DNA from: Actinomycetes bacterium
GTDB lineage: Bacteria > Actinomycetota > Humimicrobiia > Humimicrobiales > Humimicrobiaceae
NCBI GenBank assembly: GCA_030609215.1
Contig: JAUWCR010000006.1
Location: 1-15,204 of the forward strand
Direction: 5' to 3'
Length of the DNA: 15,204 nt
The translations under genes and the position numbers were made by a program. The notes beneath the pieces were generated by a model, which made no database searches, had not been told where the DNA came from, and was given only the letters and a program-made list of their open reading frames with translations. Shown here piece after piece: positions 5,605 through 14,665 of the stretch (the stretch's first letter is position 1; every line of letters begins with the position of its first letter).

Positions 5605-6078
5605 TTAAAAGTAATGCTCATTAAAATCTGATAAAAGAATTACATTATAATCATTATCTCTTACATTTTTATATAACCTCTGGTCTGCAGTTATCAGCGG
5701 CGCATTTAATTCTTCAGATAATGCAATAAAAACTGAATCATAAAATGACTGGTTTATTGCTCTTGATATTGTAAAAGCTTTTTTAAATAATATTCTATCT
5801 AAATTTACAATAAATAAAATATCATATATTTCTTTAATAATTTCATCTATTACATCTTCATGAATTTCTAATTTAGATCTAAATCCATTTAGCAGCTCAT
5901 AACACATGAGTCCTGGTGATATTATTATAATCTTATTTTCATTCAGTTGTTCGTAAAAATAAATAGCTTTATCAACATTATCTTCATTCTCTTGATGATA
6001 CCACTTAAAAACAATTGATGTATCAAGTATATACTTTCTTTTCACTCCTTCCTTGATCATAAATTCTTTCAATTCCAT
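5605..6078 (-). CDS. vapC: PIN-domain ribonuclease toxin (VapC type)
   Basis: This is a probable toxin of a type II toxin-antitoxin pair; PIN proteins are Mg-dependent RNases. The four acidic residues of the PIN active site are present: Asp19 (ILDTSIV), Glu61 (YELLNGF), Asp114 (SFYDSVFIAL) and Asp132 (LITADQRL). The last two motifs are diagnostic of VapC. The ATG directly abuts the antitoxin stop (TAAATG) with AGGA 6 nt upstream, which gives 157 residues. A GTG at 6045, preceded by AAGGAAGGA, would give a 146-residue protein starting closer to the first catalytic Asp and is a serious alternative. The pair sits between a dehydrogenase gene and folE, inside otherwise housekeeping genes, which suggests later insertion. 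The RNA target cannot be told from sequence. Confidence 0.88.
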   Translation of the reverse strand: MELKEFMIKEGVKRKYILDTSIVFKWYHQENEDNVDKAIYFYEQLNENKIIIISPGLMCYELLNGFRSKLEIHEDVIDEIIKEIYDILFIVNLDRILFKKAFTISRAINQSFYDSVFIALSEELNAPLITADQRLYKNVRDNDYNVILLSDFNEHYF

Positions 6079-6369
6079 TTATATTCCTAATCTCCTTTTC
6101 ATTTCTTTTTCTCGCAAGTCCCGCATTTTCCTTACCTCTGAAGTAGTATCCCAATCCTTAATGCCAAGTTTCATTATTTTTTCACTTGTCTTTTTTAACC
6201 TTTTAATTGCATCTCGCCTTCTTTCAAGAGCTTTCTCATCCTCTATAATATCAAAATATACTCTTGCAGCATCTATTATAAATTGTGAACGGTTAACTTT
6301 CTTATATTCTTTGTACTTATCAATTTCCTTTAAGAAACTATCAGGAATTGATATATTTACTTTAGCCAT
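6079..6369 (-). CDS. Ribbon-helix-helix antitoxin (VapB-like, CopG/Arc fold)
   Basis: A small, highly charged protein (96 residues from the ATG at 6369) sits immediately upstream of the PIN toxin. Residues about 3-42 read as a ribbon-helix-helix DNA-binding domain: the beta strand KVNISIPDSFL, helix KEIDKYKEY, then NRSQFIIDAARVYF. The remainder is a Lys/Arg/Glu-rich helical tail expected to wrap the toxin. GGGTGGT 5-6 nt upstream selects the ATG at 6369. An in-frame GTG at 6378 falls inside that ribosome binding site and is unlikely. RHH antitoxins normally repress their own operon; a candidate operator (6390-6406) and a promoter (6435-6463) lie directly upstream. Confidence 0.85.
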   Translation of the reverse strand: MAKVNISIPDSFLKEIDKYKEYKKVNRSQFIIDAARVYFDIIEDEKALERRRDAIKRLKKTSEKIMKLGIKDWDTTSEVRKMRDLREKEMKRRLGI

Positions 6370-6389
6370 TTTTACCACCCATTATTACA

Positions 6390-6566: not shown

Positions 6567-7730
6567 TCATTTTAGGGCTATCTTTAGTATTTCTAGTACA
6601 TCTTTCTTATTTAATTCTTTAAATTTTCCTATCGGTCCGTCTTCAACACATTTTGCAGCCATTTCCTCTAATCTATCCCCGCCAATGCCGATCTCTTTCA
6701 AACTGATGGGAAGGCCTATTTCTCTATAAAAATCTTCTAACTTCTTGATTCCCTCTAAAGCCATTTTTTCTAAATCATCCAAATAAGCTTCTGCATTAAA
6801 CACTCTTAATGCAAACTGAGCAAATCTTTGAATATTAAATCTATATACATACTTCATCCAGGCTGGAAATACTATAGCCAGCCCTTCTCCGTGAGGGATA
6901 TCATAAATTGCACTAATTTCATGTTCAATCATATGAGAACCCCAGTCTGGTATTCTACCTGTAGATAGCAGATTGTTATGGGCAACACTCCCGGACCACA
7001 TAATCTCAGCCCGGGCATTATAATTTTTTGGATCGAAAAGGATTATTTTAATATTATTAATTACTGTCTTTAGGGTAGCTTCTGCCAGCCTGTCAGTAAG
7101 TTCAGTATTTTTTACCTGAGTAAAATATCTTTCAAGTACATGGGCCATGATATCAGACACTCCAATAATTGTTTGCTCACTAGAGAGAGTAAATGATATC
7201 TCAGGATTTAATATAGAAAATTTTGGATAAGTTCCTTCACCACCAGATCTTTTATACCAGCCATCCTCATTGGTTATTACCGAATCGCCACTTACTTCAC
7301 TACCAGCTGCTGGAATAGTAAGCACCGTTCCTAAAGGAAGCGACTCTTTAACTTTGGCTTTTCCGCTGTAGAAATCCCATACATCCCCCTGGTATAGTAC
7401 CCCAATGGCAATAGCCTTTGCTGAATCAATAGCACTTCCTCCCCCAACTGCCAGTATGAATTTTATATTTTCTTTCCTACAAAGTTTGATTCCATCTCTT
7501 ACCATACTCAGTCTAGGATTAGGCTTAACTCCACCCAGCTCCACTACTTCAATTCCTTCTTTCTTTAGAGACTTCATTATTCTATCATAAAGACCAAATC
7601 TTTTTATACTTCCTCCGCCATAGTGAATTAACAGCTTATTCCCATATTTTTTTACCTCTCTCCCAACTTTGTCTTCAGCAGCTCTGCCAAAAATTATCTT
7701 AGTAGGAAATGCAAACTCAAAATTCTCCAT
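6567..7730 (-). CDS. Iron-containing alcohol dehydrogenase, butanol dehydrogenase/YqhD type
   Basis: A group III alcohol dehydrogenase of 387 residues that interconverts aldehydes and alcohols in the cytosol with NAD(P)H. The nucleotide site shows HYGGGSIKRFGLYD (36-49) and AVGGGSAIDSAKAIA (94-108). The metal ligands are in canonical places: Asp193 and His197 (VSDIMAHVLERY), His266 (GSHMIEHE) and His280 (DIPHGEGLAI). The HYGGGSIK-type loop resembles YqhD and clostridial butanol dehydrogenases, which prefer NADPH; that preference is inference. GGAGG 5 nt before the ATG is a strong ribosome binding site. The gene is followed by 188 nt of AT-rich sequence before the toxin-antitoxin genes and preceded by a remnant of a different (zinc-type) dehydrogenase. 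The substrate is unknown; a fermentative or detoxifying reductase fits. Confidence 0.93.
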   Translation of the reverse strand: MENFEFAFPTKIIFGRAAEDKVGREVKKYGNKLLIHYGGGSIKRFGLYDRIMKSLKKEGIEVVELGGVKPNPRLSMVRDGIKLCRKENIKFILAVGGGSAIDSAKAIAIGVLYQGDVWDFYSGKAKVKESLPLGTVLTIPAAGSEVSGDSVITNEDGWYKRSGGEGTYPKFSILNPEISFTLSSEQTIIGVSDIMAHVLERYFTQVKNTELTDRLAEATLKTVINNIKIILFDPKNYNARAEIMWSGSVAHNNLLSTGRIPDWGSHMIEHEISAIYDIPHGEGLAIVFPAWMKYVYRFNIQRFAQFALRVFNAEAYLDDLEKMALEGIKKLEDFYREIGLPISLKEIGIGGDRLEEMAAKCVEDGPIGKFKELNKKDVLEILKIALK

Positions 7731-8019: not shown

Positions 8020-10113
8020 TTACATTTTTTTAGATGTTACTCTGGATACTTTTTTTCTGGCAGGCTTATTGTTTAAAACATCGTAAGCATTACAAATTTC
8101 TTCATACTCTTTTTTGGTCCCAATTTTACCAGGATTATTACCTGCTTTATATTTTTTAGATAATCTTTCAAATACTTTTTTTATCTCATTCTTTGTTGCA
8201 GTCTTACTTAATCCTAATATTTTATATGCCCTCTCCCTGCTTATTTTTCTTGATTTAGGCTTTATAGAATTTTCTTGTATTGCCGGCCTTTTTACTTTCC
8301 TTGTTTTCCCACTTTTAACCTTAAAGAGTATCTTCATTACTTCTCCTCTGCTCAAAGTCTCTTTTTCCATTAATTCGCTAGCAAGATTACTTAGAGCATT
8401 TTTATTTTCTAAAAGTATTTTCCTTGCCTTATCGTAGCTATCATTTATGATTCTATGAATCTCTTCATCTATTGTAGAAGCTACTTGCTCACCATAATGT
8501 GGCTTGGATATTATTTCCCTGCCTAAAAACACCTCTTCTTCATCAACCTTGTAAGTAACAGGACCAATTTTTTCACTCATTCCATATTCAGTTACCATTT
8601 TTCTAGCTAGTTTCGTAGCTCTATCCAGATCATTTTGAGCTCCAGAAGTTATATCATTAAAATTCATTTCCTCGCTTACCCTTCCACCAAGTAGTTGAGT
8701 TATATTATCCAGCAACTCTTTTTTGGATTTTAGGTATCTATCTTCTTCTGGAAGAGTAATCACATATCCTAATGCTTTACCCCTTGAAATAATTGATATT
8801 TTATGAATTGGATCAGTATTTGGCAAAATATGAGAAAGTAAAGCATGTCCTGATTCATGATAAGCAATTATTTTCTTTTCCTTTTCTGATATTATTCTCG
8901 TTTTTTTCTCAGGTCCTGCTATAACTCTCTCTATAGCTTCCTCAATTTCAAACATACTGATTTTTTTCTTATTGTGCCTTGCTGCAAGAAGCGAAGCTTC
9001 ATTAAATAGATTGGCTAAATCCGCTCCTGTAAATCCAGGAGTTTGCTTGCCTATTGTTTTTATATTAACATCCTTATCAAGAGGTTTTCCTCTTGAATGT
9101 ATCTTTAATATCTTTTCTCTACCCAGTAAATCTGGTCTATCTACAACTATTTGCCTGTCAAACCTTCCAGGTCTGAGTAACGCTGGGTCCAGTATGTCAG
9201 GTCTGTTTGTTGCAGCTATTAAAATAACAGTACTGTCTACATCAAAACCATCCATTTCAACTAAAAGTTGGTTTAATGTCTGTTCTCTTTCATCATGACC
9301 TCCACCAAGTCCTGCACCCCTATGCCTTCCAACTGCATCTATTTCATCCATAAACACAATAGAAGGTTGAGTAGCTTTTGCCTTAGCAAAAAGATCTCTC
9401 ACTCTTGAGGCGCCTACGCCTACAAACATTTCTACAAATTCAGAACCACTAATACTATAGAAAGGAACACCAGCCTCACCTGCCACAGCCCTTGCAAGCA
9501 GTGTCTTGCCGGTTCCAGGCGGACCAAATAATAGAACACCCTTTGGAATTTTTGCTCCCATTGCTTTAAATTTACCAGGGTTTTCCAAAAATTCTTCAAT
9601 CTCTCTTAACTCTTCAACTGCCTCATCAACACCTGCAACATCTTTAAAGGTCACCTTCTGTTTGCCTTTATTCGCCAACCTTGCCTTGCTCTTCCCAAAT
9701 TGAAGAATCTTAGATCCCCCACCCTGCAGTTGATTCATCATAAAGAAAATCAATCCAAACATTATAATAAAAGGTAATGCTCCAATTAAAATCTGCAGCC
9801 ATATAGATTGCTTCTGATTATTTACCTTAAATGGGACATCCTCCTCTAGAAGTAATTGTGTGACATCATAATTATCCAGAAAAGTAACTTTAAACTTATT
9901 TCCGCCAATCATTTCGCCTTCTATTACTTTATCTTCTCCCATAACTTCTAAAGGAACAGAAGCACTTATCTCTCCATTCTTCACTTTACTAACAAACTCA
10001 GTCATATTTAATTCTGTTACCTCAGGTTTTAGAAAAAACGGGTTCCTGAAAATTATAAACACAATTACTATTAGTAATACTAGAAGCCCTATATTTTTAA
10101 CACTTCTTTTCAA
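8020..10113 (-). CDS. ftsH: FtsH membrane AAA+ zinc protease with J-like C-terminal extension
   Basis: FtsH is a hexameric, membrane-anchored ATP-dependent protease for misassembled membrane proteins and regulators. This copy has 697 residues. TM1 is about 8-27, an extracytoplasmic domain about 28-103 and TM2 about 104-127. The AAA module has Walker A GPPGTGKT (197-204), pore loop FVG (230-232), Walker B IVFMDEID (252-259) and the second region of homology [20 protein letters not shown] (301-320, Arg314 and Arg317). The protease site is HESGH (419-423) with the third zinc ligand Asp495. The conserved part ends near 600. A basic linker follows, then residues 624-690, which align with a DnaJ J-domain whose HPD is replaced by KAG (656-658). 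The start is TTG at 10113, with AGGAG 13 nt upstream to its first base. A single frame covers everything, so the tail is not a frameshift artefact. Confidence 0.96.
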
Positions 10114-13340: not shown

Positions 13341-14210
13341 TTATTTAATAATCCTCCATGGGCATGAATAAACATTAAACCTGTTTCCCCTTGCATAACC
13401 TACTACTGTTAAATTTAATTTCTCTGCTACGGTAACTGAACTATAGGTAACAGAAGAATTAGTAACTACTACAGGAATAGACATCCTGTAAATCTTAAAA
13501 ATAATACCCAGCGATACTCTTCCTGTTGTAAAGAGAATTTTATCTTCGAGTGAAATATTATTCATCATTGAATAACCAATAATTTTATCTATGCAATTAT
13601 ACTTTCCTATGTCCTCAATAATTTTTATAGCATCACCACTTTTTGAAAATAGCACCCCGCTATGCAGACCGCCAAATTCCTTCTTGTGTTTCTGATAACT
13701 TAAAGCTTCCTTATTTAATTTTAAAATAATCTTAGGATCAAATTCTATACTGCTTTTTGTTTTTTCCAACCTTTCATCAGATACAAAATCGCTAATACTA
13801 CTATAGGCAGGTGAAATAAATTTTATTTTTTTAGCCCTAATTACATCTTCATCCCCAGCATTGCAGCTAACTTCAATTCTTCTAGCAAAAGGGAATCTAT
13901 CGCTGCCGATGTTTCTTCCATTTCTGCTATCCTTTTTTTTATTTTCCATATTATATTTCTCATCATCACAGTAAAAAACAGTATCTATATCTGAATATTT
14001 ATCCAAATATCCACCAGAAAGCAAATAACCAATAGCAAGCTGTATCTCATTTTCCGGTGAACAGGAAACTACAGAAATTAAATTCTTATTTAAAAATATT
14101 GACAGTTGCATCTCATCAGGAATAATATCTAATAATTGCTCGCATCCCGAAGAAGCCTTTATTTTCTTTATCTTAACTTTCTTTCCTAGTTCCAAAATTT
14201 TATTTTCCAA
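13341..14210 (-). CDS. fdhD: FdhD-like sulfurtransferase homologue lacking the CxxC pair
   Basis: FdhD passes sulfur from a cysteine desulfurase to the molybdenum bis-MGD cofactor of formate dehydrogenase. Family features visible: SCSPENEIQLAIGYLLSGGY (49-68), FGGLHSGVLFSKSGD (179-193), IIEDIGKYNCIDKIIG (197-212), FTTGRVSLGIIFKIY (227-241) and the C-terminal NVYSCPWRI. Two oddities stand out. The CxxC loop expected before the HSGVLF block reads SPAYSSISD (133-141), without cysteine. The nearly invariant 'RHN' in the EDxGRHN motif is KYN. Six other cysteines exist but none is paired as CxxC. The TTG start overlaps the lipoprotein gene by 25 nt; AAGGA is 12 nt upstream. The family call is firm, but activity as a standard sulfurtransferase is doubtful. 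Confidence 0.85.
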   Translation of the reverse strand: MENKILELGKKVKIKKIKASSGCEQLLDIIPDEMQLSIFLNKNLISVVSCSPENEIQLAIGYLLSGGYLDKYSDIDTVFYCDDEKYNMENKKKDSRNGRNIGSDRFPFARRIEVSCNAGDEDVIRAKKIKFISPAYSSISDFVSDERLEKTKSSIEFDPKIILKLNKEALSYQKHKKEFGGLHSGVLFSKSGDAIKIIEDIGKYNCIDKIIGYSMMNNISLEDKILFTTGRVSLGIIFKIYRMSIPVVVTNSSVTYSSVTVAEKLNLTVVGYARGNRFNVYSCPWRIIK

Positions 14211-14665
14211 CTTTCATTTTCATCCTTAATTAAAGAAACAAGTATATCCTTATATATTTTTTCTTCTCCATCATAATAATCAATTAAATCTATTTCTACC
14301 AAAGCTATATTGTTTTTAATTTCTACACTATTTATATCTATAGAAACTATATCAGTAACATTGCCCATTTCTTTTTTAAAATTATCCAATGTATTATTTT
14401 TTTCATTATCTATATAAATATATTTATATGCACTATTATAATCTTTTTCCATTAGCATATTAAAAAATTCATTAACTACTTCTACTACTCTATCAATCTC
14501 TTTATCACTGGATAATTTGCTTGTAATAAAATCTTTAGTCTGCTGCACCTGCGAGCAAGACGTAAAAACAAGACAAAGTAAAAATATTGCTAAAAAAATC
14601 ACTATATATCTAAAAATTATCTGATACCTGGAGGTAAAAATTTTTACCTCCTCTTTAAAAGCCAA
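14186..14665 (-). CDS. Small lipoprotein of unknown function
   Basis: Up to 159 residues. A hydrophobic segment (about 16-36) ends in a lipobox-like VFTSC with Cys37, so the mature protein is probably lipid-anchored. The mature part is acidic and has an NTF2-like flavour: a helix VVEVVNEFFNMLMEKDYNSAYKYI (61-84, written here only to locate it by its ends VVEVV and YKYI), then beta strands VEIKNNIALVEIDLID and a terminal ESWKIKFW. The fold assignment is a guess from pattern. Three starts compete: TTG at 14665 (AAAGGAAG 7 nt upstream) gives an over-long N-region, and a rare ATT at 14641 has the far better GAGGAGGT at 5 nt and an ideal signal peptide. A later GTG at 14602 lacks the positive charge. 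It overlaps fdhD by 25 nt. Confidence 0.75.
   Translation of the reverse strand: MAFKEEVKIFTSRYQIIFRYIVIFLAIFLLCLVFTSCSQVQQTKDFITSKLSSDKEIDRVVEVVNEFFNMLMEKDYNSAYKYIYIDNEKNNTLDNFKKEMGNVTDIVSIDINSVEIKNNIALVEIDLIDYYDGEEKIYKDILVSLIKDENESWKIKFWN
14630..14651. repeat. Perfect 22-bp palindrome over the lipoprotein ribosome binding site
   Basis: The arms GGAGGTAAAAA and TTTTTACCTCC are exactly complementary. In mRNA this can form a stem of about 9 bp with an AAUU loop, pairing the GGAGG Shine-Dalgarno with CCUCC just after the possible ATT start. It may also be a DNA operator. It lacks the flanking U-run position expected of a terminator for upstream genes. Confidence 0.7.

Follow-up and report, generated by a model that had tools for sequence, protein, structure and literature searches.

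An HPD-less J-like domain at the C terminus of an FtsH protease in Actinomycetota

The FtsH protease encoded in the window, the whole analyzed stretch of 15,204 bases that constitutes one entire contig of a draft MAG (1.34 Mb, 73.81% complete, 3.84% contamination), ends in a domain that is homologous to the J domain of DnaJ and is predicted to adopt the same class of fold, with Lys-Ala-Gly at the place of the HPD tripeptide. Both this tail and a second one, from the Actinomycetota MAG fen_731 (G017), have lost HPD together with charges that correspond to DnaK contacts, and both have retained the hydrophobic core. With a probability of about one half, the tail is a DnaK-independent docking arm that is kept for its fold.

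FtsH body and J-like tail

The ftsH reading frame is open, and the encoded protein is the sole match to this FtsH in its own assembly (73.8% complete). The FtsH equivalog model TIGR01241 matches residues 11 to 591 with 838.1 bits (cut-off, 600); the AAA, AAA lid, and Peptidase_M41 domains are all recognized by Pfam, and the HExxH zinc motif can be read directly from the translation as HESGH in the M41 domain. The body is like FtsH of related Actinomycetota, with 74 to 84% identity to the other rows of the family alignment. Behind it, residues 624 to 690 map to positions 8244 to 8044 when computed from the ORF start (features are listed in Table 1). The first-pass annotation had described this part as a J-domain-like module in which HPD has become KAG, and its reading was confirmed by Pfam, phmmer, and alignment, as were the coordinates it gave for the tail and the tripeptide. 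The Pfam DnaJ profile scores well above its gathering cut-off; the 97-residue tail alone gives an E value of 1.9e-12 with PF00226, and phmmer against PDB chains retrieves the J domain of DnaJ (1bqz, E = 4.8e-9), in an alignment that sets K-A-G under H-P-D without gaps. Chance similarity to DnaJ is ruled out by the E values from Pfam, NCBIfam, and the PDB sequences.

Table 1. Features of ftsH and its C-terminal tail in the window
Feature	Position	Strand	Basis
ftsH, ATP-dependent zinc metalloprotease with C-terminal J-like tail	8020..10113	minus	697 aa, TTG start
AAA+ ATPase domain, residues 193-325	9139..9537	minus	PF00004, 156.3 bits
Peptidase M41 domain, residues 406-595	8329..8898	minus	PF01434, 237.9 bits
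Basic linker, residues 596-628	8230..8328	minus	between M41 and DnaJ matches
J-like domain, residues 629-687	8053..8229	minus	PF00226, 43.1 bits, E 4.5e-11, cut-off 27.8
Lys656-Ala657-Gly658 replacing HPD	8140..8148	minus	ungapped alignment to DnaJ

Three helices were predicted by AF2 for either tail, each from a two-row alignment. In the window tail (mean pLDDT, 70.0; pTM, 0.50), they span positions 29 to 36, 44 to 59, and 70 to 83 of a 100-residue stretch, with ten-residue pLDDT means of 80 to 90 in helices I and II, 58 in the loop, and 86 and 69 in helix III; the basic linker ahead of the first helix stays mostly at 50 to 65. The G017 tail (mean pLDDT, 73.9; pTM, 0.47) has helices at 51 to 58, 66 to 79, and 83 to 97, and its J part reaches pLDDT means of 85 to 93. 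J domains lead the Foldseek matches in the PDB with a probability near 1 and with weak best E values of 0.028 (window tail) and 0.016 (G017), which agrees with the fold proposed in the first-pass annotation; no match at an E value of 0.001 or below was found for either tail (best 50 of 112 and best 50 of 145 matches), and some lower matches bear no J-protein name. DnaJ bound to DnaK (5nro) is among the matches, at ranks 6 and 11.

Like the J domain of DnaJ (PF00226), the tail shows the helix I to III pattern and the hydrophobic core and, in the window species, the length too; unlike it, the tail has no HPD, is acidic at position 26, and is appended to the end of a protease instead of leading a chaperone. 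The combination of a J fold with an absent or altered HPD would put it, by sequence and model, among the J-like (type IV) proteins. The type IV examples given in excerpts of PMC11349236 (Pam16/Tim16, TbPam18, and plant J-like/CPP1) likewise have a J fold in which HPD is not intact, but they are eukaryotic and are not fused to an AAA protease; according to the same excerpts, HPD-less or HPD-altered J-like domains such as Pam16 and TbPam18 are regarded as having no direct stimulatory effect on Hsp70. The Pam16 family gave no Pfam match to the window tail up to an E value of 1 and none to the G017 tail up to an E value of 10, in searches where the HMMER filters drop most weak matches, and a CPP1-like match below its own cut-off appeared with the G017 tail only. 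No described FtsH-J fusion was found among the titles, abstracts, and excerpts of the open-access papers searched. The FtsH-type proteins in an excerpt of PMC7159879 were set aside as a precedent: they carry a pair of AAA domains and are components of conflict systems, and DnaJ is fused there to an FNIII-repeat protein instead.

Elsewhere in the window, an iron-containing alcohol dehydrogenase (6567-7730, minus strand) and a PIN-domain protein (5605-6078, minus strand) are encoded between ftsH and folE. A small ORF (6079-6378, minus strand) scores 26.9 with a HicB-like antitoxin profile, just under the cut-off of 27.0, and by their sequences this ORF and the PIN-domain protein are perhaps a toxin-antitoxin pair. 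A folE-like start, recognized by eye from its likeness to folE of the window, lies within 700 bases after ftsH in five or more relatives (among them G023, G015, G003, G010, and G001). The product of another ORF (14186-14665, minus strand, 159 aa), which overlaps the fdhD start, looks lipoprotein-like by eye and has no Pfam match at an E value of 0.001.

The HPD loop and the DnaK contact positions

Both tails were compared with a class-wide reference set: 57 J domains of DnaJ length that are not part of FtsH, and nine J ORFs that are small or unusual (L085 to L093); position numbers follow E. coli DnaJ. HPD is carried by 57/57 of the former and 9/9 of the latter, and both groups were rejected as an HPD-less source of the tails. 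Six positions invariant in the 57 standalone domains (Y7, L10, L28, A53, Y54, and L57) are kept by both tails. H33, P34, and D35, equally invariant, are K, A, and G in the window tail; in G017 they are deleted, within an alignment gap of nine columns that spans the HPD loop and corresponds to about nine missing residues, so that neither tail has the tripeptide between helices II and III. Further positions that are constant in all 57 have changed: R26 is E in the window tail and D in G017, hence acidic in both; K48 is E and R, respectively; D5 is R and K; Y6 is A in both; and in the window tail A and V stand for K62 and Y66, with R63 retained, while the G017 tail stops before position 62. A29 and F47 (56 of 57) are lost from both. 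Three departures common to the two tails, a basic residue at position 5, Ala at 6, and an acidic residue at 26, are found in 0 of the 57 standalone domains. D5, Y6, and Y66 are invariant yet lost, and we would not call them DnaK contacts.

The DnaK contacts of DnaJ comprise HPD and R22, K26, R27, K48, and K51, as stated in an excerpt of PMC8215388. At the five charged positions, the window tail reads K, E, R, E, and C, and the G017 tail reads R, D, S, R, and K; the loss of several of these charges argues against a simple DnaK decoy. From the sequences, we infer that the tail would be unable to stimulate DnaK. The earlier proposal that the fold has been kept and DnaK activation lost is supported at this level by both species, in which the six hydrophobic positions persist, HPD is gone, and position 26 is acidic. 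It is very improbable that the tail docks DnaK in a noncanonical way, by helix II and despite KAG, and brings in DnaK-bound clients; the window tail does retain basic residues at 22, 23, 27, 30, and 31 plus Asn37, but against this stand the missing HPD and the acidic position 26 of both tails, E at position 48 in the window tail, the lost loop of G017, and the statement, in an excerpt of PMC8215388, that a change of H or D in HPD abolished Hsp70 stimulation in every tested system.

Eight of the small J loci (L085 to L092, from G013, G014, G015, G011, G050, G004, G020, and G043) encode HPD-containing proteins of about 104 to 124 codons whose C-terminal ends are alike (e.g., RRFYDGWVS). Three of these genes (L088, L090, and L091) are flanked by what we take to be RecO-like and GlyQ-like genes.

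The assembly that contains the window has a dnaK gene, which is truncated at the edge of its contig (G000:C155:2-1063, minus strand). Its own dnaJ was not found there, the FtsH tail being the sole PF00226 match, and the genome's own DnaJ, considered as a source of the tail, is not in the 73.81% complete assembly. A J match lies downstream of dnaK on the same contig in five relatives (G007, G003, G015, G023, and G001). Because dnaK is cut at the contig edge and J follows dnaK in these relatives, dnaJ is probably missing through incomplete assembly.

These genes bear on a further explanation, which we consider improbable: in the manner of Pam16, the tail might pair with a regular J protein (DnaJ) and control or recruit it, so that DnaK clients reach FtsH indirectly. 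Such pairing of a J-like with a J protein is known for Tim16 with Tim14 (Pam16/Pam18; excerpts of PMC11349236), DnaK and DnaJ bring sigma32 to FtsH in E. coli (excerpt of PMC3486835), and dnaK is at hand in this genome; however, Pam16 is not among the Pfam matches of either tail, and the partner dnaJ is the very gene that the assembly lacks.

A second tail and the distribution of the architecture

The family comprises 35 species including that of the window, and the FtsH C terminus was found and read in 32 of them; the assemblies of G007, G008, and G022 did not yield it. J-like tails are present in two of the 32, those of the window species (G000) and of G017, whereas the other 30 C termini are low-complexity, mostly basic tails without a J-like domain. 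The survey of FtsH homologues suggested in the first-pass annotation yielded two tails, with HPD missing from both; with 30 of 32 C termini (the window's own being one of the 32) lacking it, the tail comes close to the absence from all close relatives that was named there as a refutation, G017 being the exception. The G017 tail passes the DnaJ cut-off of 27.8 with 29.9 bits over profile positions 2 to 55, and its last 75 residues alone reach 32.8 bits with Pfam DnaJ. An N run of 2 bases interrupts FtsH of G017, but the part that bears the tail reads as a single open frame, which starts in the M41 region and continues for 246 codons up to the stop.

That the architecture is an assembly artefact, a chimeric join of ftsH with a stray dnaJ fragment, is hardly credible. 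The draft state of the MAG, with the completeness and contamination given above, would allow for it, as would the G017 contig, which ends 34 bases past the ftsH stop and contains the N run; however, the same architecture occurs in two assemblies of different genera, the window is free of N, and neither tail is a piece of one of the compared J domains of the class, all of which (57/57 and 9/9) carry the HPD that both tails lack.

Wider searches used profile A1, which joins the FtsH end to J. Among 40 genomes of the class, only G000 and G017 gave a joint match in an open reading, after a G012 row that extends to column 153, and other rows of lesser extent, had been left out because they run through stop codons. 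Among the matches listed for 396 Actinomycetota genomes, there was no FtsH-J joint match beyond these two; in the class of G033, 10 of 36 genomes matched A1 at an E limit of 1e-20, and none of the matches extends into J. IMG/VR yielded no relative with A1, and none of the 111 matching plasmid records or the 19 matching phage records covers 80% of the query (best 10 of 111 and best 10 of 19). The rarity of FtsH-J accordingly holds within the sampled Actinomycetota. A scan of named genomes returned three loci: L082, which is the fen_731 contig (G017:C46) with the same tail, L083 (Candidatus Calidifonticultor daggyaiensis), and L084 (a Desulfovibrio MAG), the last with a weaker match. In two genomes of genus g75 (G281:C58 and G242:C121), the FtsH end lies inside 1088-codon open frames, which suggests that FtsH is joined to another protein there.

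G003, which is by label of the same genus as G017 and has no J-like tail, is its partner (79%) in the FtsH tree; genera g2, g4, g11, and g8 form a clade at 84%, and G000 joins the clade of G017 at only 45%. In the J-domain tree, the two tails have very long branches and group as sisters (69%) if the loop columns are included, but not if these are removed. One gain with several losses and two gains are both compatible with these trees; the sequence departures that the tails have in common (positions 5, 6, and 26) hint at one origin.

The extent of constraint was estimated from the two species. pS is 0.82 at the M41 end (132 codons) and 0.85 in the J part (53 codons), which means that synonymous sites are saturated, and pN is 0.16 and 0.44, respectively. 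Because pS is saturated and pN is 0.44 versus 0.16, the J part would, given a single ancestor of both tails, be under much weaker constraint than the protease, though still under some. In a crude neutral simulation of the window tail (63 codons; 4,000 runs each at 0.6, 0.8, 1.0, and 1.5 substitutions per site), about 1% of the runs retained an open frame from 0.6 substitutions per site upward, and 0 of 4,000 runs at each distance combined this with hydrophobic residues at every one of 12 core positions of our own choice; both real tails are hydrophobic at all 12. The argument presupposes one origin and fails if each lineage acquired its tail recently.

Docking arm or decaying remnant

The patchy distribution could also mean that an ancestral fusion of FtsH and J, once equipped with a functional HPD, became dispensable and is now eroding, has been dropped in most relatives, and has no function. 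We regard this as possible though rather unlikely. Such decay would leave a tail in only two of 32 species, different damage to the loop of each (substitution in the window tail, deletion in G017), rapid evolution, and long branches. Five relatives that belong to the same FtsH clade as G017 (G023, G015, G001, G003, and G010) have low-complexity tails only, and no DnaJ match was present in the ten of the 30 J-less tails that were scanned with Pfam. Erosion is at odds, however, with the fact that both species keep the frame open and the hydrophobic core complete although their synonymous sites have diverged to saturation, and no recognizable trace of a tail was seen in the 700 bases after M41 of these five relatives, where the only tblastn matches to either tail had E values of 0.23 or worse.

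We favor a docking role over a decaying remnant. The repetition of the architecture in G017, with a loop that is disrupted differently, speaks for a docking arm as far as the sequences go; against it speak the presence in only 2 of 32, the fast evolution of the J part and its long branches, the loss of invariant positions that are not contacts, and the weak Foldseek E values. FtsH is a hexamer whose C terminus is cytosolic. According to the docking model, a J-fold domain of DnaJ descent would hang by a flexible basic linker on an otherwise normal FtsH C terminus, and the hexamer would thereby present six copies of the tail. The tail would persist because the folded three-helix module does something itself, and the module would most likely hold a partner protein, be it a substrate, an adaptor, or a further J protein, beside the protease without an Hsp70 cycle, by analogy with what has been proposed for HPD-less J-like domains elsewhere. 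The more specific form of this model, in which a J domain has been turned into a built-in, Hsp70-independent arm that brings partners or substrates to the FtsH protease, is put forward only tentatively.

The known cooperation between chaperones and FtsH, as in the case of E. coli sigma32, involves separate proteins. If the docking model is true, the J fold can serve an AAA+ protease directly, covalently fixed to FtsH, and these species would offer a simple system in bacteria for finding out which partners are bound by HPD-less J domains.
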